DNA of 36,672 nucleotides from Bacteroidota bacterium. GTDB lineage: Bacteria > Bacteroidota > Bacteroidia > Chitinophagales > Chitinophagaceae. The notes under the pieces were generated by a model that saw only the letters and a list, made by a program, of their open reading frames with translations, did not search any database and was not told where the DNA came from. The position numbers were made by a program, and so were the translations under genes. This document shows, piece by piece, positions 15,394-35,191 of this stretch (position 1 is the first letter of the stretch; the number at the start of each line of letters is the position of its first letter). The stretch covers positions 1 through 36,672 of the forward strand of contig VBAQ01000150.1 in assembly GCA_005883765.1 (NCBI GenBank). The letters run 5' to 3'.

Positions 15394-15419
15394 TGAACGA
15401 TGAGTGATGACGAAGTGGT

Positions 15420-15447
15420 ACCCACCACTGACAACTCACCACTCACC
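15420..15447 (+). repeat. Heptanucleotide repeat between rpsR and rplI
   Basis: Four consecutive 7-base words, ACCCACC, ACTGACA, ACTCACC and ACTCACC, fill the spacer just before rplI. The preceding 26 bases contain related words on the other strand (GTGAACG, ATGAGTG), and AGTGGT/ACCACT (15414-15429) can form a small hairpin. Similar heptamers occur at 25086, 28273 and 33240. Confidence 0.6.
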
Positions 15448-15463
15448 TCTAAAAAATACTATC

Positions 15464-15910
15464 ATGGAAGTCATATTAATTCAGGATGTCGATAACCTGG
15501 GTGGAGCGAATGAAGTAGTGAAAGTTCGCAATGGTTATGCCCGCAATTTTCTTCTTCCCCGCAAGCTGGCAATCGAAGCGAACCAGGGAAACATGAAGCA
15601 GCTCGAGGAAAAAAGAAAGCAACAGCAGAAAAAAGAAGCGGCCATGCTTGCGGAAGTAAATAGCGTTATCGAAAAACTGCAGGAAGCTCCCGTAAAAGTT
15701 GGTGCTAAAACCGGAACCAGCGGCAAGATCTTTGGTTCGGTAACCAGCCTTCAACTCAGCCGCGCCATTCGTGATCAGAAAGGATACGAGATCGATCGCA
15801 AAAAAATTACGCTGCCTGACGAAGTCAAAGAGTTGGGGACGTACAAGGCTCACATTGATTTCGGCAATGGTAAGTCAACTGACGTAGAGTTTGAAGTAGT
15901 TGGCGAGTAG
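15464..15910 (+). CDS. rplI: Large ribosomal subunit protein L9
   Basis: L9 is a two-domain 50S protein joined by a long helix. From the ATG at 15464 it has 148 residues, the normal size; an upstream in-frame ATG would add 20 residues encoded by the repeat spacer and is not credible. The N-terminal rRNA-binding domain is complete (VILIQDVDNLGGANEVVKV, NGYARNFLLPRKLA), the linker is Lys/Gln-rich, and the C-terminal domain has GKIFGSVTSLQLSRAI and ITLPDEVKELGTYKAHI. A terminator follows 27 bases after the stop. Confidence 0.97.
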   Translation: MEVILIQDVDNLGGANEVVKVRNGYARNFLLPRKLAIEANQGNMKQLEEKRKQQQKKEAAMLAEVNSVIEKLQEAPVKVGAKTGTSGKIFGSVTSLQLSRAIRDQKGYEIDRKKITLPDEVKELGTYKAHIDFGNGKSTDVEFEVVGE

Positions 15911-27065: not shown

Positions 27066-27365
27066 TCACGGATTCAATATCTTCAGGACCAAAATGCCGA
27101 TGCCGTAGATTACGGTGGTGAGAAAAATTCCTTTAGCAGTATTATCGCGATGTGTATTGATGTAAAGAGTAAAAAGCACGGCATTGGCCAGCAACGATAA
27201 GGCCCCGATAGAAGTAATTCTTTTGTTGTCTGTGATAAAAAAATTGAAAAACTCGCCAAAAGTGAAAGAGCGGTAACTGACAAGATAAACCACCGCAAGA
27301 CCAATAATTGGACCCAGTAAACCAAGCACCAGGCCAAATTTGAGATTGTCTTTTTTTAGTAACAT
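27066..27365 (-). CDS. Small membrane protein downstream of surE
   Basis: A 99-residue integral-membrane protein with three hydrophobic segments (about 10-30, 50-68 and 78-96), starting MLLKKDNLKFGLVLGLLGP. I place the start at the ATG at 27365, which forms a TAATG stop-start junction with surE; another ATG 9 bases upstream is possible and would add three residues. It is translationally coupled to surE. The family is unnamed; I cannot assign a function. Confidence 0.72.
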   Translation of the reverse strand: MLLKKDNLKFGLVLGLLGPIIGLAVVYLVSYRSFTFGEFFNFFITDNKRITSIGALSLLANAVLFTLYINTHRDNTAKGIFLTTVIYGIGILVLKILNP

Positions 27366-28204
27366 TAACGCCATAGTTTTTCAAGTTTGGTTTTTAAAAC
27401 GTAATTGGTCAGATCAAATTGCACCGGAACCACACTTACATATTGATTTGCCAATGCCCACACATCAGTATCTTTTCCCCTGTCGAAGTTAACAAACTCA
27501 CCGGTTAGCCAATAATATCTTCTGCCATTGGGATCCTTGCGTTCAATAAAATCCTCTTCGTATTTGGCGTAAGCTTGCCGGCAAATTTTGATGCCCCGGA
27601 TCAACTCCGCTGGCAGGGCCGGAATATTTACATTCAACACCGTGTGCTTGTTTTGTTTTCTTTGCAAGAGTCTTTCAACGATGATGCGGGCATATTTTCT
27701 TGAAGCGGAAAAATCTGCTTCGATATTAAAGTCCAGGAGCGAGAATCCAACTGACGGAATACTTTCAATGGCTGCTTCGACCGCTGCAGACATAGTTCCT
27801 GAATAAATTACATTGATGCTGTGATTGGCGCCATGATTGATACCGCTGAGGCAGAGGTCCGGTTTGCGATGCAAGACTTTGTCGACAGCCAGCTTGACAC
27901 AATCCACGGGTGTTCCCGAGCACTGCCATGCTTCGATATTTTCGAATGCATTTACTTTATGAAGTCGAAGCGGTGTTCCAATTGTGATAGCATGGCCCAT
28001 GCCCGACTGTGGTTTGTCCGGCGCGACTACGACAATTTTACCAAGATCTTTCACAGCTTCTACAAGATTGTGAAGACCGGGTGCTGTAATTCCATCATCA
28101 TTTGTGATCAGGATGATCGCTTGTTCTTTCTTGGAAACTTTTGCTTTGCCTGGAGATTTTTGTTTATGCTTTGTAGTTTGCGATTTCTTTTTTGTTTTTA
28201 CCAT
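27365..28204 (-). CDS. surE: 5'/3'-nucleotidase SurE
   Basis: SurE is a metal-dependent phosphatase that removes phosphate from nucleoside monophosphates and some short polyphosphates. The core motifs are ILITNDDGITAPGL (metal-binding Asp pair), SGMGHAITIGTPLRL and SGINHGANHSINVIYSGT (Asn). The protein has 279 residues from the ATG at 28204; a TTG 15 bases upstream is an alternative. Before the core lies an extension of about 33 residues that is very rich in Lys, Gln and Ser (MVKTKKKSQTTKHKQKSPGK and onward), unusual for a family that normally begins directly with the first strand. It heads a two-gene unit with the small membrane protein. Confidence 0.93.
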   Translation of the reverse strand: MVKTKKKSQTTKHKQKSPGKAKVSKKEQAIILITNDDGITAPGLHNLVEAVKDLGKIVVVAPDKPQSGMGHAITIGTPLRLHKVNAFENIEAWQCSGTPVDCVKLAVDKVLHRKPDLCLSGINHGANHSINVIYSGTMSAAVEAAIESIPSVGFSLLDFNIEADFSASRKYARIIVERLLQRKQNKHTVLNVNIPALPAELIRGIKICRQAYAKYEEDFIERKDPNGRRYYWLTGEFVNFDRGKDTDVWALANQYVSVVPVQFDLTNYVLKTKLEKLWR

Positions 28205-28253
28205 AATCAACTTCGGCAAAAGTGCCGATAATTTTTGGATGTGTCAAATTGTA

Positions 28254-28286
28254 TCCCGATAGCTATCGGGAGGTGAATGGTGAATG
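28254..28286 (+). repeat. 18-bp palindrome with adjoining heptamers
   Basis: TCCCGATAGCTATCGGGA (28254-28271) is a perfect palindrome, followed by two GTGAATG heptamers (28273-28286). The larger 39-base unit 28247-28285 reappears with about 36 matches in 40 aligned columns inside the helicase gene at 34461-34499 on the other strand. It therefore looks like a member of a dispersed repeat family rather than a regulator site for surE. Confidence 0.75.
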
Positions 28287-28341
28287 GATGTACTCACTTG
28301 AGGAAACGTATAGTTCTTAAAAAAAAAATTCGATCTTATCC

Positions 28342-28386: not shown

Positions 28387-29136
28387 ATGTCAGTCGCCAA
28401 TCAAAATTTAAAATATCTGCGCAAGTTGCGCGGATGGACGCAGGAGGAGTTTGCACAGAAGCTGCGTATCAAAAGATCTCTTTTAGGTGCTTACGAAGAA
28501 GAAAGAGCTGAACCGCGAATTGAGGTACTGGAAGTAGTGTGTGATATTTTTAAGTTGACGCTCGATGAGATCCTGCGAAAAGATTTAAGTGATAACAAAG
28601 GCAACTATATCGCCAAACGGAGAGCCATGAAATTGGCTGGAGGAAGACCCGACATTCCTTTTGTTCCTGTTAAGGCCGCGGCTGGCTACCTTGCCGGTTA
28701 TGGAGACCCTGAATTTGTAGATGAACTTAACACATTTACTTTGCCTATGCTCTCGGGCGGGAACTACCGCGCCTTTGAAATAGTTGGTGATTCGATGATG
28801 CCCACGCCGAGTGGGTCTGTGATAGTAGGTGAAAAAGTAGACAACGTTGACGACGTAAAAAACAATATGACCTACGTTGTTGTTTCGAGAAATGAGGGGA
28901 TCGTTTATAAAAGAATACTAAAAGGAAATCGGACAAAAAATAAGCTCACCCTGGTAAGTGATAATCCGGCGTATAAACCCTATACGATAAATGCGGAAGA
29001 AATATTAGAAATATGGCAAGCACAATACATAATTGCCAAGGCCACACAGCAACAGAGGTGGGATGTCGACCATCTTGCCAATGTAGTTAGCTCACTTCAT
29101 CAGCAGGTCTCTATATTAAAAAAAAGAATGAATTGA
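28387..29136 (+). CDS. LexA-like repressor: XRE helix-turn-helix plus S24 peptidase domain
   Basis: A 249-residue transcription factor. Residues 6-60 form an XRE-type helix-turn-helix (LRKLRGWTQEEFAQKLRIKR and the following LLGAYEEERAEP). The C-terminal S24 domain has the serine nucleophile Ser136 in GDSMMPTPSG and the general-base Lys175 in IVYKRIL. An Ala99-Gly100 bond in KAAAGYLAG is placed where LexA/CI proteins cleave themselves. The last 24 residues look like a coiled coil. Proteins of this shape are either self-cleaving SOS-like repressors or non-cleaving variants; the intact Ser/Lys pair permits cleavage. It is a single gene with no phage genes around it, so a prophage repressor is unlikely. 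Confidence 0.9.
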   Translation: MSVANQNLKYLRKLRGWTQEEFAQKLRIKRSLLGAYEEERAEPRIEVLEVVCDIFKLTLDEILRKDLSDNKGNYIAKRRAMKLAGGRPDIPFVPVKAAAGYLAGYGDPEFVDELNTFTLPMLSGGNYRAFEIVGDSMMPTPSGSVIVGEKVDNVDDVKNNMTYVVVSRNEGIVYKRILKGNRTKNKLTLVSDNPAYKPYTINAEEILEIWQAQYIIAKATQQQRWDVDHLANVVSSLHQQVSILKKRMN

Positions 29137-32522: not shown

Positions 32523-35051
32523 CTAGCCCTGTAATTGCATTTGCATTCTGCGAACACGCTCCTCGAGTTTCTCTGAAGAAAGATCCTCACGCATACTGTC
32601 CACTTTTATGGGAAAACAGAAAGGTGTCAATTGCTCTGGAAACCTGATAATGATTTTTGATTGCTGAATGCGATTGAGCATATCGCGCAGGCGGGCCTCT
32701 TCCATCTGCTGCGCAAACACTTCGCTGTATGCCTGTCGCAGCAGCAAATTTTCGGGCTCATACTCCGAAAAAACGTTGAACAATAAAGAAGCGGAAGATT
32801 GCAGGTGTCGTGCTTTTTTCTGCTCACCCGGATAACCCTGGAAAACCAAACCACCGATAACCGCAATATCCCGGAATTTTCTTTTCGCCATTTCAGTAGC
32901 ATTCACGCTGCGCTGAATATCCTGGAAAAGATCTTCAGTCGAAAATAGATCATAAGCATTCGTATCGTCTACGGGGATTGGTCTGTCACTCAAAAGCTCA
33001 AAGCCATAATCATTCATGGCAAAGGAAAAGGTGATTGGCATGATCCGGCTAATGCGATACGCGAGAATCGCAGCCATGGCCTCATGTACCAGCCTGCCTT
33101 CAAAAGGGTAAACAAACAAATGAAACCCATCATCCGTTTCAATTTGCTCCACCAGCAATTCATTTGCTCTGGGCACATGCGATATTTTTTCCTGTAACTC
33201 AAAGAGCGGTTGAAGAACTTGCAGCTCAATATCTATCCCGTGAGACGTGAAACGTGAAACGTGAGAACTTTCACTTTTCACCCTATTCAAAGTCTCTCTC
33301 AATTTTTTTCCCAGGTTAGCACTTAGGGGCATCCTTCCTCCCTGCCAACTCGGTACGAGCGATTTCTTTGCGTTCGATTTTCTTGCCAGCACCGTCATAT
33401 CCTTGATCATGATGAATTCCAGCCGGCGACCTGCCAGGGTAAAAACATCCCCCGGCTCCAGTCGTGAAACAAACCATTCTTCGATCATCCCGATATACCC
33501 GCCACTGACAAACTTTACCCTCAACATCGCTTCGCTCACAATAGTACCGATCTGTAGCCGATGCCGCATTGCAATGCGACGATTTTTTATTCTATAGATC
33601 CCATTTTCGATCTCGATCTTTTTAAATTCATCATATTGCTGCAGGGCTGTTCCGCCGATAGTAATGTGTGCAAGAATATTCTGCCACTCATCCCTGGTCA
33701 TTTCGCGAAAACAATATGCTGACTTCACTTCCTCAAAAATTTCATCGGGCCTAAATCCTTCAGAAATCGCCAATGTGCAGAGATATTGAACCAAAACATC
33801 AAAACACAACAGCATAGGGTCGCGGCTTTCAATAAAATTTTCTTCTACAGCATTCTTCAATGCTGCGGCTTCAACCAGTTCCAGCGAATGCGTAGGCAAA
33901 AAATAGATTTTGCTGATCGCATCGGGGCTGTGGCCACTTCGTCCTGCCCGCTGTAAGAACCGTGCAACACCTTTTGGCGAACCTACCTGTATCACCGTTT
34001 CTACCGGCCGAAAATCAACTCCAAGATCAAGACTTGCCGTACACACTACTGCTTTTAATTTTTCTGCATGCAATGCCTCCTCCACCCAAATTCTTAGTTC
34101 GTGCTCAATGCTTCCGTGATGGAGGGCAATCGCGCCCGCCAGTTCTGGTGCCCGGCTCAACAAGGTTTGATACCAGATCTCACTCATGCCCCTTGTGTTG
34201 ATAAAGATGAGGGTGGTTTTACTGTTATTGATAATGGGAATTACTTTATCGATCAACTTAATTCCGAGATGACCAGCCCATGGAAATTTTTCTATCTCAT
34301 CCGGAAAAATAGATTCGATCTCAACTTTCTTTTGCAATTCCGCTTTGACAATGATGCCTTTCGCCTTTTCCTCTTTGAAATCTAAAACAGACAAGAGAAC
34401 TTCTTTCGCCTGCTCCAGGTTTCCTATTGTTGCACTAATTCCCCACACTTGTGTCCTGCGATTCACCATTGACTCCCGATCGCTATCGGGATGACAATTC
34501 ACAACTCTTGAAATCGCGAGCTCAACCTGCACGCCTCTTTTACTGCCCAACAGTTCATGCCACTCATCAACGGCAATTATTTTAAGCGTTTTGAAAAACT
34601 CGGGGTAATTTTTCTGCCCAAGCAAGAGATGTAAACTTTCAGGAGTGATGATAAGGACCTCGGGCATTTGTTTTGTCTGTCTCTGCCTTTCATTGATCTC
34701 AGTATCGCCGTTCCGGATGCCGATTTTCCAGCTCAGCCCCAATTCATTTATGACTTCGTCCATTGCCCGGCCAATATCTTTTGCCAATGCACGAAGAGGG
34801 GTGATCCAAAGAAGCTGCAAACCAACCTTTGATCTTTTTTTATAATCACCGGCATGCTGATTAATAAAATCAATTAATGCACCCAGGAAAACAGAAAATG
34901 TTTTCCCGCAACCCGTCGGCGCATTTACTAAACCACTTTCCCCATCGATGATATGTTGCCATGCCTCTTCCTGGAACCGGAAAGGGTAAAGACCCTTAGC
35001 GGTAAGCCAATCTCTGATCACTTTATATCCTGGCGACTGATAAACTTCCAT
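32523..35051 (-). CDS. Ligase-associated DEXH-box helicase (Lhr type)
   Basis: An 842-residue superfamily 2 DNA helicase. Helicase motif I is NAPTGCGKT (43-51), Ia PLRALA, motif II VDEWH (Asp162), motif III GISATIGN (204-211). The second RecA-like domain has TLIFINTRGMSEIWYQ, VVCTASLDLGVDF and QRAGRSGHSP. The C-terminal part is the Lhr winged-helix and DUF4011-like region (FHLFVYPFEGRLVHEAMAAI). Such helicases unwind 3'-tailed duplexes in a DNA repair pathway with PdeM. Oddities: residues about 184-201 and 591-604 are encoded by dispersed repeat DNA. I start at the ATG at 35051; the TTG at 35060 would add three residues. Confidence 0.93.
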   Translation of the reverse strand: MEVYQSPGYKVIRDWLTAKGLYPFRFQEEAWQHIIDGESGLVNAPTGCGKTFSVFLGALIDFINQHAGDYKKRSKVGLQLLWITPLRALAKDIGRAMDEVINELGLSWKIGIRNGDTEINERQRQTKQMPEVLIITPESLHLLLGQKNYPEFFKTLKIIAVDEWHELLGSKRGVQVELAISRVVNCHPDSDRESMVNRRTQVWGISATIGNLEQAKEVLLSVLDFKEEKAKGIIVKAELQKKVEIESIFPDEIEKFPWAGHLGIKLIDKVIPIINNSKTTLIFINTRGMSEIWYQTLLSRAPELAGAIALHHGSIEHELRIWVEEALHAEKLKAVVCTASLDLGVDFRPVETVIQVGSPKGVARFLQRAGRSGHSPDAISKIYFLPTHSLELVEAAALKNAVEENFIESRDPMLLCFDVLVQYLCTLAISEGFRPDEIFEEVKSAYCFREMTRDEWQNILAHITIGGTALQQYDEFKKIEIENGIYRIKNRRIAMRHRLQIGTIVSEAMLRVKFVSGGYIGMIEEWFVSRLEPGDVFTLAGRRLEFIMIKDMTVLARKSNAKKSLVPSWQGGRMPLSANLGKKLRETLNRVKSESSHVSRFTSHGIDIELQVLQPLFELQEKISHVPRANELLVEQIETDDGFHLFVYPFEGRLVHEAMAAILAYRISRIMPITFSFAMNDYGFELLSDRPIPVDDTNAYDLFSTEDLFQDIQRSVNATEMAKRKFRDIAVIGGLVFQGYPGEQKKARHLQSSASLLFNVFSEYEPENLLLRQAYSEVFAQQMEEARLRDMLNRIQQSKIIIRFPEQLTPFCFPIKVDSMREDLSSEKLEERVRRMQMQLQG
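33240..33281 (+). repeat. Heptanucleotide repeat inside the helicase gene
   Basis: Six 7-base words on the plus strand: GTGAGAC, GTGAAAC, GTGAAAC, GTGAGAA, CTTTCAC, TTTTCAC. They are 42 bases, so exactly 14 codons of the minus-strand helicase gene (residues 591-604), and the frame stays open. The same kind of repeat is intergenic elsewhere in this window. Confidence 0.7.
34461..34499 (-). repeat. Copy of the 28247 repeat unit within the helicase gene
   Basis: The minus strand carries AATTGTC, then the palindrome TCCCGATAGCGATCGGGA (one base from perfect) and CAATGGTGAAT. It matches 28247-28285 in about 36 of 40 columns. It encodes the segment NCHPDSDRESMVN, where related helicases normally have a short loop before the strand leading to motif III. 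Confidence 0.7.
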
Positions 35052-35191
35052 GAAAAACAATTTAAAGAAGGATGTAACAACTAAAAAATTTATTTACCGA
35101 AAACAATTTGTTTGCCCACCCGCCATTGTTACTCGTTGCACTCATAAAAACTTTAGGTTTGCTCACACGATTTTTAATTAACCTTGATAAC

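Follow-up and report, generated by a model that had tools for sequence, protein, structure and literature searches.

The window, by which we mean the whole 36,672-nucleotide stretch of Chitinophagaceae DNA analysed here (contig VBAQ01000150.1), is contig C37 of our source genome G000, a 4.67-Mb draft. Two stretches of it resemble each other. Positions 28,247 to 28,285 of the plus strand and 34,461 to 34,499 of the minus strand aligned with 36 of 40 columns identical, two mismatches, and two single-base gaps, which reproduced the match described in the original prediction. The first stretch lies between genes and contains the exact 18-mer TCCCGATAGCTATCGGGA, while the second lies inside a helicase-like gene and contains TCCCGATCGCTATCGGGA, in which one central mismatch removes the perfect palindrome (Table 1). 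Shuffling of the window gave an expectation of 0.01 matches at three or fewer mismatches, and none of 100 shuffles held two matches. The 39 bases had been taken for a single repeat unit. When the flanks of 56 distinct copies (three or fewer mismatches, in the DNA examined at that point) were listed, only the 18 bp recurred; the remaining bases of the similarity belong to a 7-bp array of the word GGTGAAT that is present at both window sites. Since the flanks of the other copies differ, we rejected a 39-bp unit and describe the repeat as an 18-bp hairpin.

Table 1. Hairpin units, neighboring 7-bp arrays, and host gene in the window (positions count from the first base of the window).
Feature	Position	Strand	Remark
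18-bp hairpin unit, exact	28254..28271		between divergent ORFs 27365-28219 (minus) and 28387-29136 (plus)
7-bp array GGTGAAT, 2.3 repeats, adjoining the intergenic copy	28272..28287	+	
845-aa helicase-like ORF with the second copy	32523..35060	-	name based on the motifs DEWHE and SAT
Second 7-bp array, CGTGAAA	33239..33264	+	in another variable loop of the helicase gene
Left part of the 7-bp array hosting the helicase copy, ATTCACCATTGAC	34461..34473	+	
18-bp hairpin unit in the helicase gene, TCCCGATCGCTATCGGGA	34474..34491		minus strand encodes PDSDR; replaces 3 bp compared with G001 and G014
Right part of the 7-bp array hosting the helicase copy, TGACAATTCACAAC	34492..34505	+	

The helicase copy sits in a variable loop between the DEWHE and SAT motifs. 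Across the 29 aligned loci of relatives, this loop varies both in sequence and in length, and the segment is thus not one conserved in distant relatives, an objection that the original prediction had itself raised. Where G000 carries the hairpin, CAT is found in the sister species G001 and CAC in G014; two more distant relatives, L105 and L102, showed other lengths in the alignment. The protein of G000 is five residues longer here than that of G001 (VNCHPDSDRESMVNR versus VNGQWSMVNR), so that the predicted in-frame insertion is supported as a gain of five codons relative to the sister species. In G001, the same loop holds a GGTCAAT array without interruption, and different 7-bp arrays occupy it in G000, G001, G008, G013, G014, and G028. 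Two repeat types had been noted in the helicase gene. A second repeat does exist, and it is a 7-bp array in a separate variable loop, which in G001 carries an array together with a hairpin copy (encoding IPIAIG). Elsewhere in the window, a 7-bp array of CACCACT (15,423 to 15,447) lies near the start of a 168-aa ORF (15,404 to 15,910) and gives a leader peptide, PPLTTHHSPL, that is perhaps upstream of the true start of this ORF.

RNA folding of the 18-bp unit gave a 7-bp stem with a 4-nt loop (AGCT) and a free energy of -9.1 kcal/mol. Read on either strand, the unit lacks a stop codon in two of three frames, which encode PDSYR or PIAIG. Among 351 distinct copies at two or fewer mismatches, 286 were exact, many of them fetched with the exact pattern, and 65 changed, the mismatched copies stemming from an uneven sample. 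The stem is conserved: 26 of the 41 single changes fell within the 4-nt loop, and 13 of the 24 double changes were compensatory, 11 of these 13 at the outer pair.

Screening of G000 revealed 23 exact copies and 76 at two or fewer mismatches, compared with 0 for the reversed pattern. The unit is therefore not limited to the two copies in the window, and the idea that such elements spread in this genome was upheld. Of 79 genomes, comprising G000 and relatives, 12 carried exact copies, 1 to 36 each and scattered over families; the exact 18-mer was absent from the other 67, and the reversed control gave 0 in all 79. A class-wide sample yielded the exact 18-mer in 97 of 395 genomes, with up to 53 copies. 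When the sample was phylum-wide, 28 of 395 genomes carried it, all of them among the 98 that belong to the class of G000, and it was found in 0 of the 297 genomes of other classes (class membership counted from the rows of the sample). Because 79 of the at least 80 loci listed in a scan of named genomes (at least 118 stretches) bear Bacteroidota names, we take this class to be Bacteroidia; the names among the matches listed include Flavobacterium, Mucilaginibacter, Chitinophagaceae, and Cyclobacteriaceae, and one further locus is labeled "uncultured bacterium." The 18-mer was also present in 37 stretches of viral contigs. Thus, the hairpin is dispersed and patchily distributed.

Some loci hold more than one copy. 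A long ORF of G013 (C167, L091), presumably UvrA, carries three copies, at positions 939, 1048, and 1077, two of them 29 bp apart, and the G000 gene in L045 likewise has two copies 29 bp apart. On C44 of G077 (L071), exact hairpins recur at a regular spacing of 403 bp (positions 1501, 1904, and 2307), and a variant hairpin follows the first two by about 260 bp, a tandem repeat that carries the unit. Two similar long ORFs of G000 have the hairpin at the same position (L002 1501 and L022 1501), which implies either that it was copied along with the gene or that two insertions took place.

What the hairpin displaced is best seen at empty sites. All 30 aligned orthologs of a gene of Flavobacterium sp. 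UBA5153 (L225) have 3 bp at the position of its 18-mer, which makes this the cleanest empty site; these were the best 30 of 118 matching genomes among the 121 searched from the genus of G392, which was taken as Flavobacterium. The change leads from GAAG-AAT-TGGATT to GAAG-18-mer-TGGATT and, in the protein, from E-EL-D to E-VPIAIGM-D. As 3 bp are replaced by 18, the gene gains a net 15 bp and the protein five amino acids, so that the reading frame survives, and the site shows no target duplication. With blastn, the 3-bp gap was recovered in 30 of 30 comparisons, 29 times at the junction and once five bases away from it. We count the L225 case as a single insertion event. Comparison of L245 with L223 likewise gave a replacement of 3 bp, and the nested copies of L032 fit a 3-bp replacement inside an older copy. 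Arrays flanked 30 of 282 copies, and their register was readable in 18; 12 of these fit 3 missing bp and 6 fit 4, 5, or 6, with the proviso that, in a 7-bp array, register alone makes a 3-bp replacement indistinguishable from a 4-bp duplication.

Other sites were less uniform. Rough homologues indicated losses of 4, 5, 6, 8, or more bp. In G000, a phosphoesterase gene (L010) showed a net gain of 36 bp over five aligned relatives, and the kynureninase gene (L003) showed a net gain of 21 bp, its length exceeding that in 15 of 16 aligned relatives by 7 codons (of the 30 loci fetched, 13 were left unaligned). In the 16th relative, the sister species, there seems to be a decayed copy of the hairpin. 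At the intergenic locus L223, a copy bearing two changes is present in the closest relative. These three loci, together with the Cu-ATPase L131 and AroA L164 (the latter compared at the protein level only), are consistent with inserts in variable regions and give no clean length. A 3-bp replacement is what the best-resolved sites show, and three is the commonest and best-resolved loss seen, not a universal rule. Some copies in hairpin loops, such as L251, could reflect insertion without loss.

The original prediction had also pointed to target duplications, and at first sight the flanks of copies do share 4 bp directly (z 5.9 in G000 and 5.1 elsewhere), as well as 11 bp. The apparent 4-bp repeat is largely confined to 7-bp arrays, in which replacement of 3 bp predicts the same signal. 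Outside arrays, a full 4-bp match of the flanks was found for only 3 of 152 exact copies, and the excess of flank identity was weak, with z values of 2.0 to 2.7 at 4 to 6 bp, no more than 2.7 over lengths of 1 to 12, and 1.7 and 2.9 in low-periodicity subsets. Given this low number and the replacement seen at the L225 empty site, we rejected a 4-bp target duplication as a general rule.

Arrays are favored as targets, yet they host only a minority of copies. Flank identity at a lag of 7 was 0.36 in G000 and 0.35 elsewhere, compared with 0.27 and 0.28 at other lags, and 27 of 326 copies had period-7 flanks, compared with 0 to 5 at random positions in the same loci (20 draws). Such arrays are common in G000: in the DNA examined for them (the window plus 11 long stretches, 255,672 bases, mostly from copy-carrying contigs and with a few copies inside), we counted 17 period-7 arrays and 0 in a first-order Markov control; other periods gave 0 to 7 arrays, except period 14 with 11. 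At L054 (G000 C144, positions 5477 and 5549), two 7-bp arrays of opposite orientation, with the words GAGTAAT and ATTACTC, lie about 70 bp apart, which means that arrays can form long hairpins.

Loops of existing hairpins are a second favored location. Among 285 exact copies, 14 lay within the loop of a further hairpin whose stem measured 7 bp or more, compared with a mean of 2.4 and a maximum of 8 after shuffling; for stems of 10 bp or more, the count was 8, compared with a mean of 0.1 and a maximum of 2. Some of these host loops are terminator-like. The majority of copies lie outside both arrays and hairpin loops. Of 282 copies, 63 fell within open frames of 150 aa or longer, which are not all genes, and were read as PDSYR in 34, as PIAIG in 25, and in the third frame in 4 (variants without a stop). 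The hairpin was also found inside the RNase P RNA of G183 (L134 1252-1668) and inside a Flavo-1 RNA (RF01705) of G097 (L143 1468-1554).

We consider it probable that the 18-bp hairpin constitutes a minimal mobile unit in Bacteroidia and is pasted into DNA, commonly replacing about 3 nt without duplication. Its mobility is read from sequence comparison, no movement having been observed. New copies would be pasted preferentially where DNA slips or turns single-stranded, that is, in 7-bp arrays and in the loops of existing hairpins, and plain coding and spacer sequence would also serve as targets. The commonest outcome would be the exchange of about 3 nt for the hairpin with no target duplication and a gain of 15 bp; with this gain and the stop-free frames of the unit, reading frames would survive. 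We infer that the copies move in folded, single-stranded form and are pasted by an activity acting in trans. A more specific version, which we put forward tentatively as one possibility, is that the 18-nt hairpin is the whole element and that Bacteroidia have a dedicated trans-acting system by which it is copied as a folded single strand and swapped for three nucleotides.

Errors of replication or repair offer a different account, in which the hairpin is copied from another site in the cell when the template is switched at hairpins and at slipping 7-bp arrays, with no dedicated enzyme. The enrichment of copies in arrays and hairpin loops would be expected from such errors, and the nested and closely spaced copies in L032, L045, and L091, as well as the varying loss at some sites, point in the same direction. 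However, one and the same sequence recurs class-wide, yet G014 and G008 lack an exact copy despite having arrays in the same helicase loop, and in L225 plain coding sequence was entered as well. We regard template switching as unlikely to be the source of the copies.

It is less likely still that the hairpin is a selected site, for instance a terminator, a protein-binding site, or the tip of an RNA, that was raised by mutation and selection and not by movement. HIP1 of cyanobacteria is a selected site that rises in this manner. The compensatory double changes would suit such a site, as would the copies in the Flavo-1 RNA, in the RNase P RNA, and in terminator-like loops. On the other hand, the empty sites of the helicase gene and L225 show block replacement instead of substitutions, copies occur in enzyme genes, where a terminator or binding site is unexpected, and the occurrence is patchy.

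REP elements with their TnpA_REP (RAYT) transposases are short dispersed hairpins, present in many copies and mostly extragenic, and a transposase of this Y1 type had been suggested as the source of the repeat. The 18-bp unit resembles REP and BIME sequences in being a short, dispersed, imperfect palindrome with many copies (76 against 0 in the control, as given above), and Y1_Tnp matches exist in G000. A RAYT-type Y1 transposase would, however, be expected near REPs, and we found neither association nor proximity for the hairpin. Y1_Tnp occurred in 8 of 12 carriers as well as in 49 of 67 noncarriers; it was not found in the carriers G013 (36 exact copies; genome 72% complete), G050, G075, and G077; and the 16-bp core of the unit had no match at four or fewer mismatches in the four Y1 loci of G000 searched, including about 1.5 kb on either side. 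As the presence of the transposase does not track the hairpin, we rejected it as the source, and a REP element moved by a Y1 enzyme appears highly improbable. One Y1 match of G000 (C317, L018/L019) is split between two frames, and the gene looks broken. The original interpretation as a whole is thus partly supported, in that spread and in-frame gain stand and the 39-base unit, target duplication, and TnpA_REP do not.

It is equally hard to credit that the unit derives from a larger transposon ending in TCCCGATAG...CTATCGGGA, whether as its footprint or as an internally deleted MITE: its two 9-bp inverted halves would fit, but half-sites outside copies are not enriched (13, compared with 16 and 18 in two controls) and none form an inverted pair within 3 kb in the 2.47 Mb examined, so that remnants of a longer element with these ends are not supported by the sequences, and where a MITE is expected to leave a target-site duplication, the 152 non-array copies show no clear fixed one (a 4-bp match in 3) and L225 is a replacement.

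Among known systems, the GC clusters of yeast mitochondria are very short mobile palindromes of many copies that merge and shuffle, differ between related genomes, and have an unknown enzyme, and the abundant ones have direct repeats, AG or ACT, on their flanks, according to a report on them (PMC4478555). The hairpin resembles these clusters (GC42) in its very short palindromic unit, its many copies, and its presence or absence at homologous sites (L225; the helicase of G000 versus G001), and it differs in that it replaces about 3 bp at clean sites with no duplication there, in contrast to the AG or ACT repeats. The clusters also belong to an organelle, whereas the 18-bp hairpin resides in a bacterial chromosome. 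The PstI palindromes of Neurospora mitochondria are dispersed units with an 18-nt palindromic core and are suspected to be mobile. They share dispersal and an 18-nt palindrome with our unit, and they differ from it in their mitochondrial compartment and in their sequence.

Rickettsia palindromic elements are palindromic, dispersed, and inserted in frame inside genes, with a length of about 150 bp (PMC10969869). The hairpin is similar in being palindromic, dispersed, and in frame within protein-coding genes (helicase, L225), and unlike them in its length of 18 bp and in its hosts, which belong to another phylum, with Bacteroidota names at 79 of the at least 80 loci listed instead of Rickettsia. 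For the 7-bp arrays, one survey gives heptamers as the most abundant class of 5- to 11-nt repeats in most genomes and places TAACTGA arrays in some Bacteroidetes (PMC4679880). The arrays that host some hairpin copies resemble such heptanucleotide repeats, whereas the hairpin is a separate unit with most copies outside arrays. The STRR sequences of cyanobacteria are also heptanucleotide tandem repeats.

The sequence CCCGATAGCTATCGGG had no match in the literature searched, with subscription journals and preprints outside its coverage, and, among the papers listed on palindromic or heptanucleotide repeats of Bacteroidetes or Flavobacterium, no title or opening line of an abstract describes the 18-bp unit. 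The replacement of about 3 bases, with its net gain of 15, is unlike the MITE or yeast GC-cluster pattern against which we compared it. If a dedicated exchange is at work, insertion would preserve the reading frame by design, and the hairpin could live in conserved genes and structured RNAs. The unit would be among the shortest mobile DNAs known in bacteria and, throughout a whole class, would supply proteins with short peptides and functional RNAs with loops. The hairpin makes it testable how tiny repeats with no known transposase spread and how the variable loops of conserved proteins gain new sequence.
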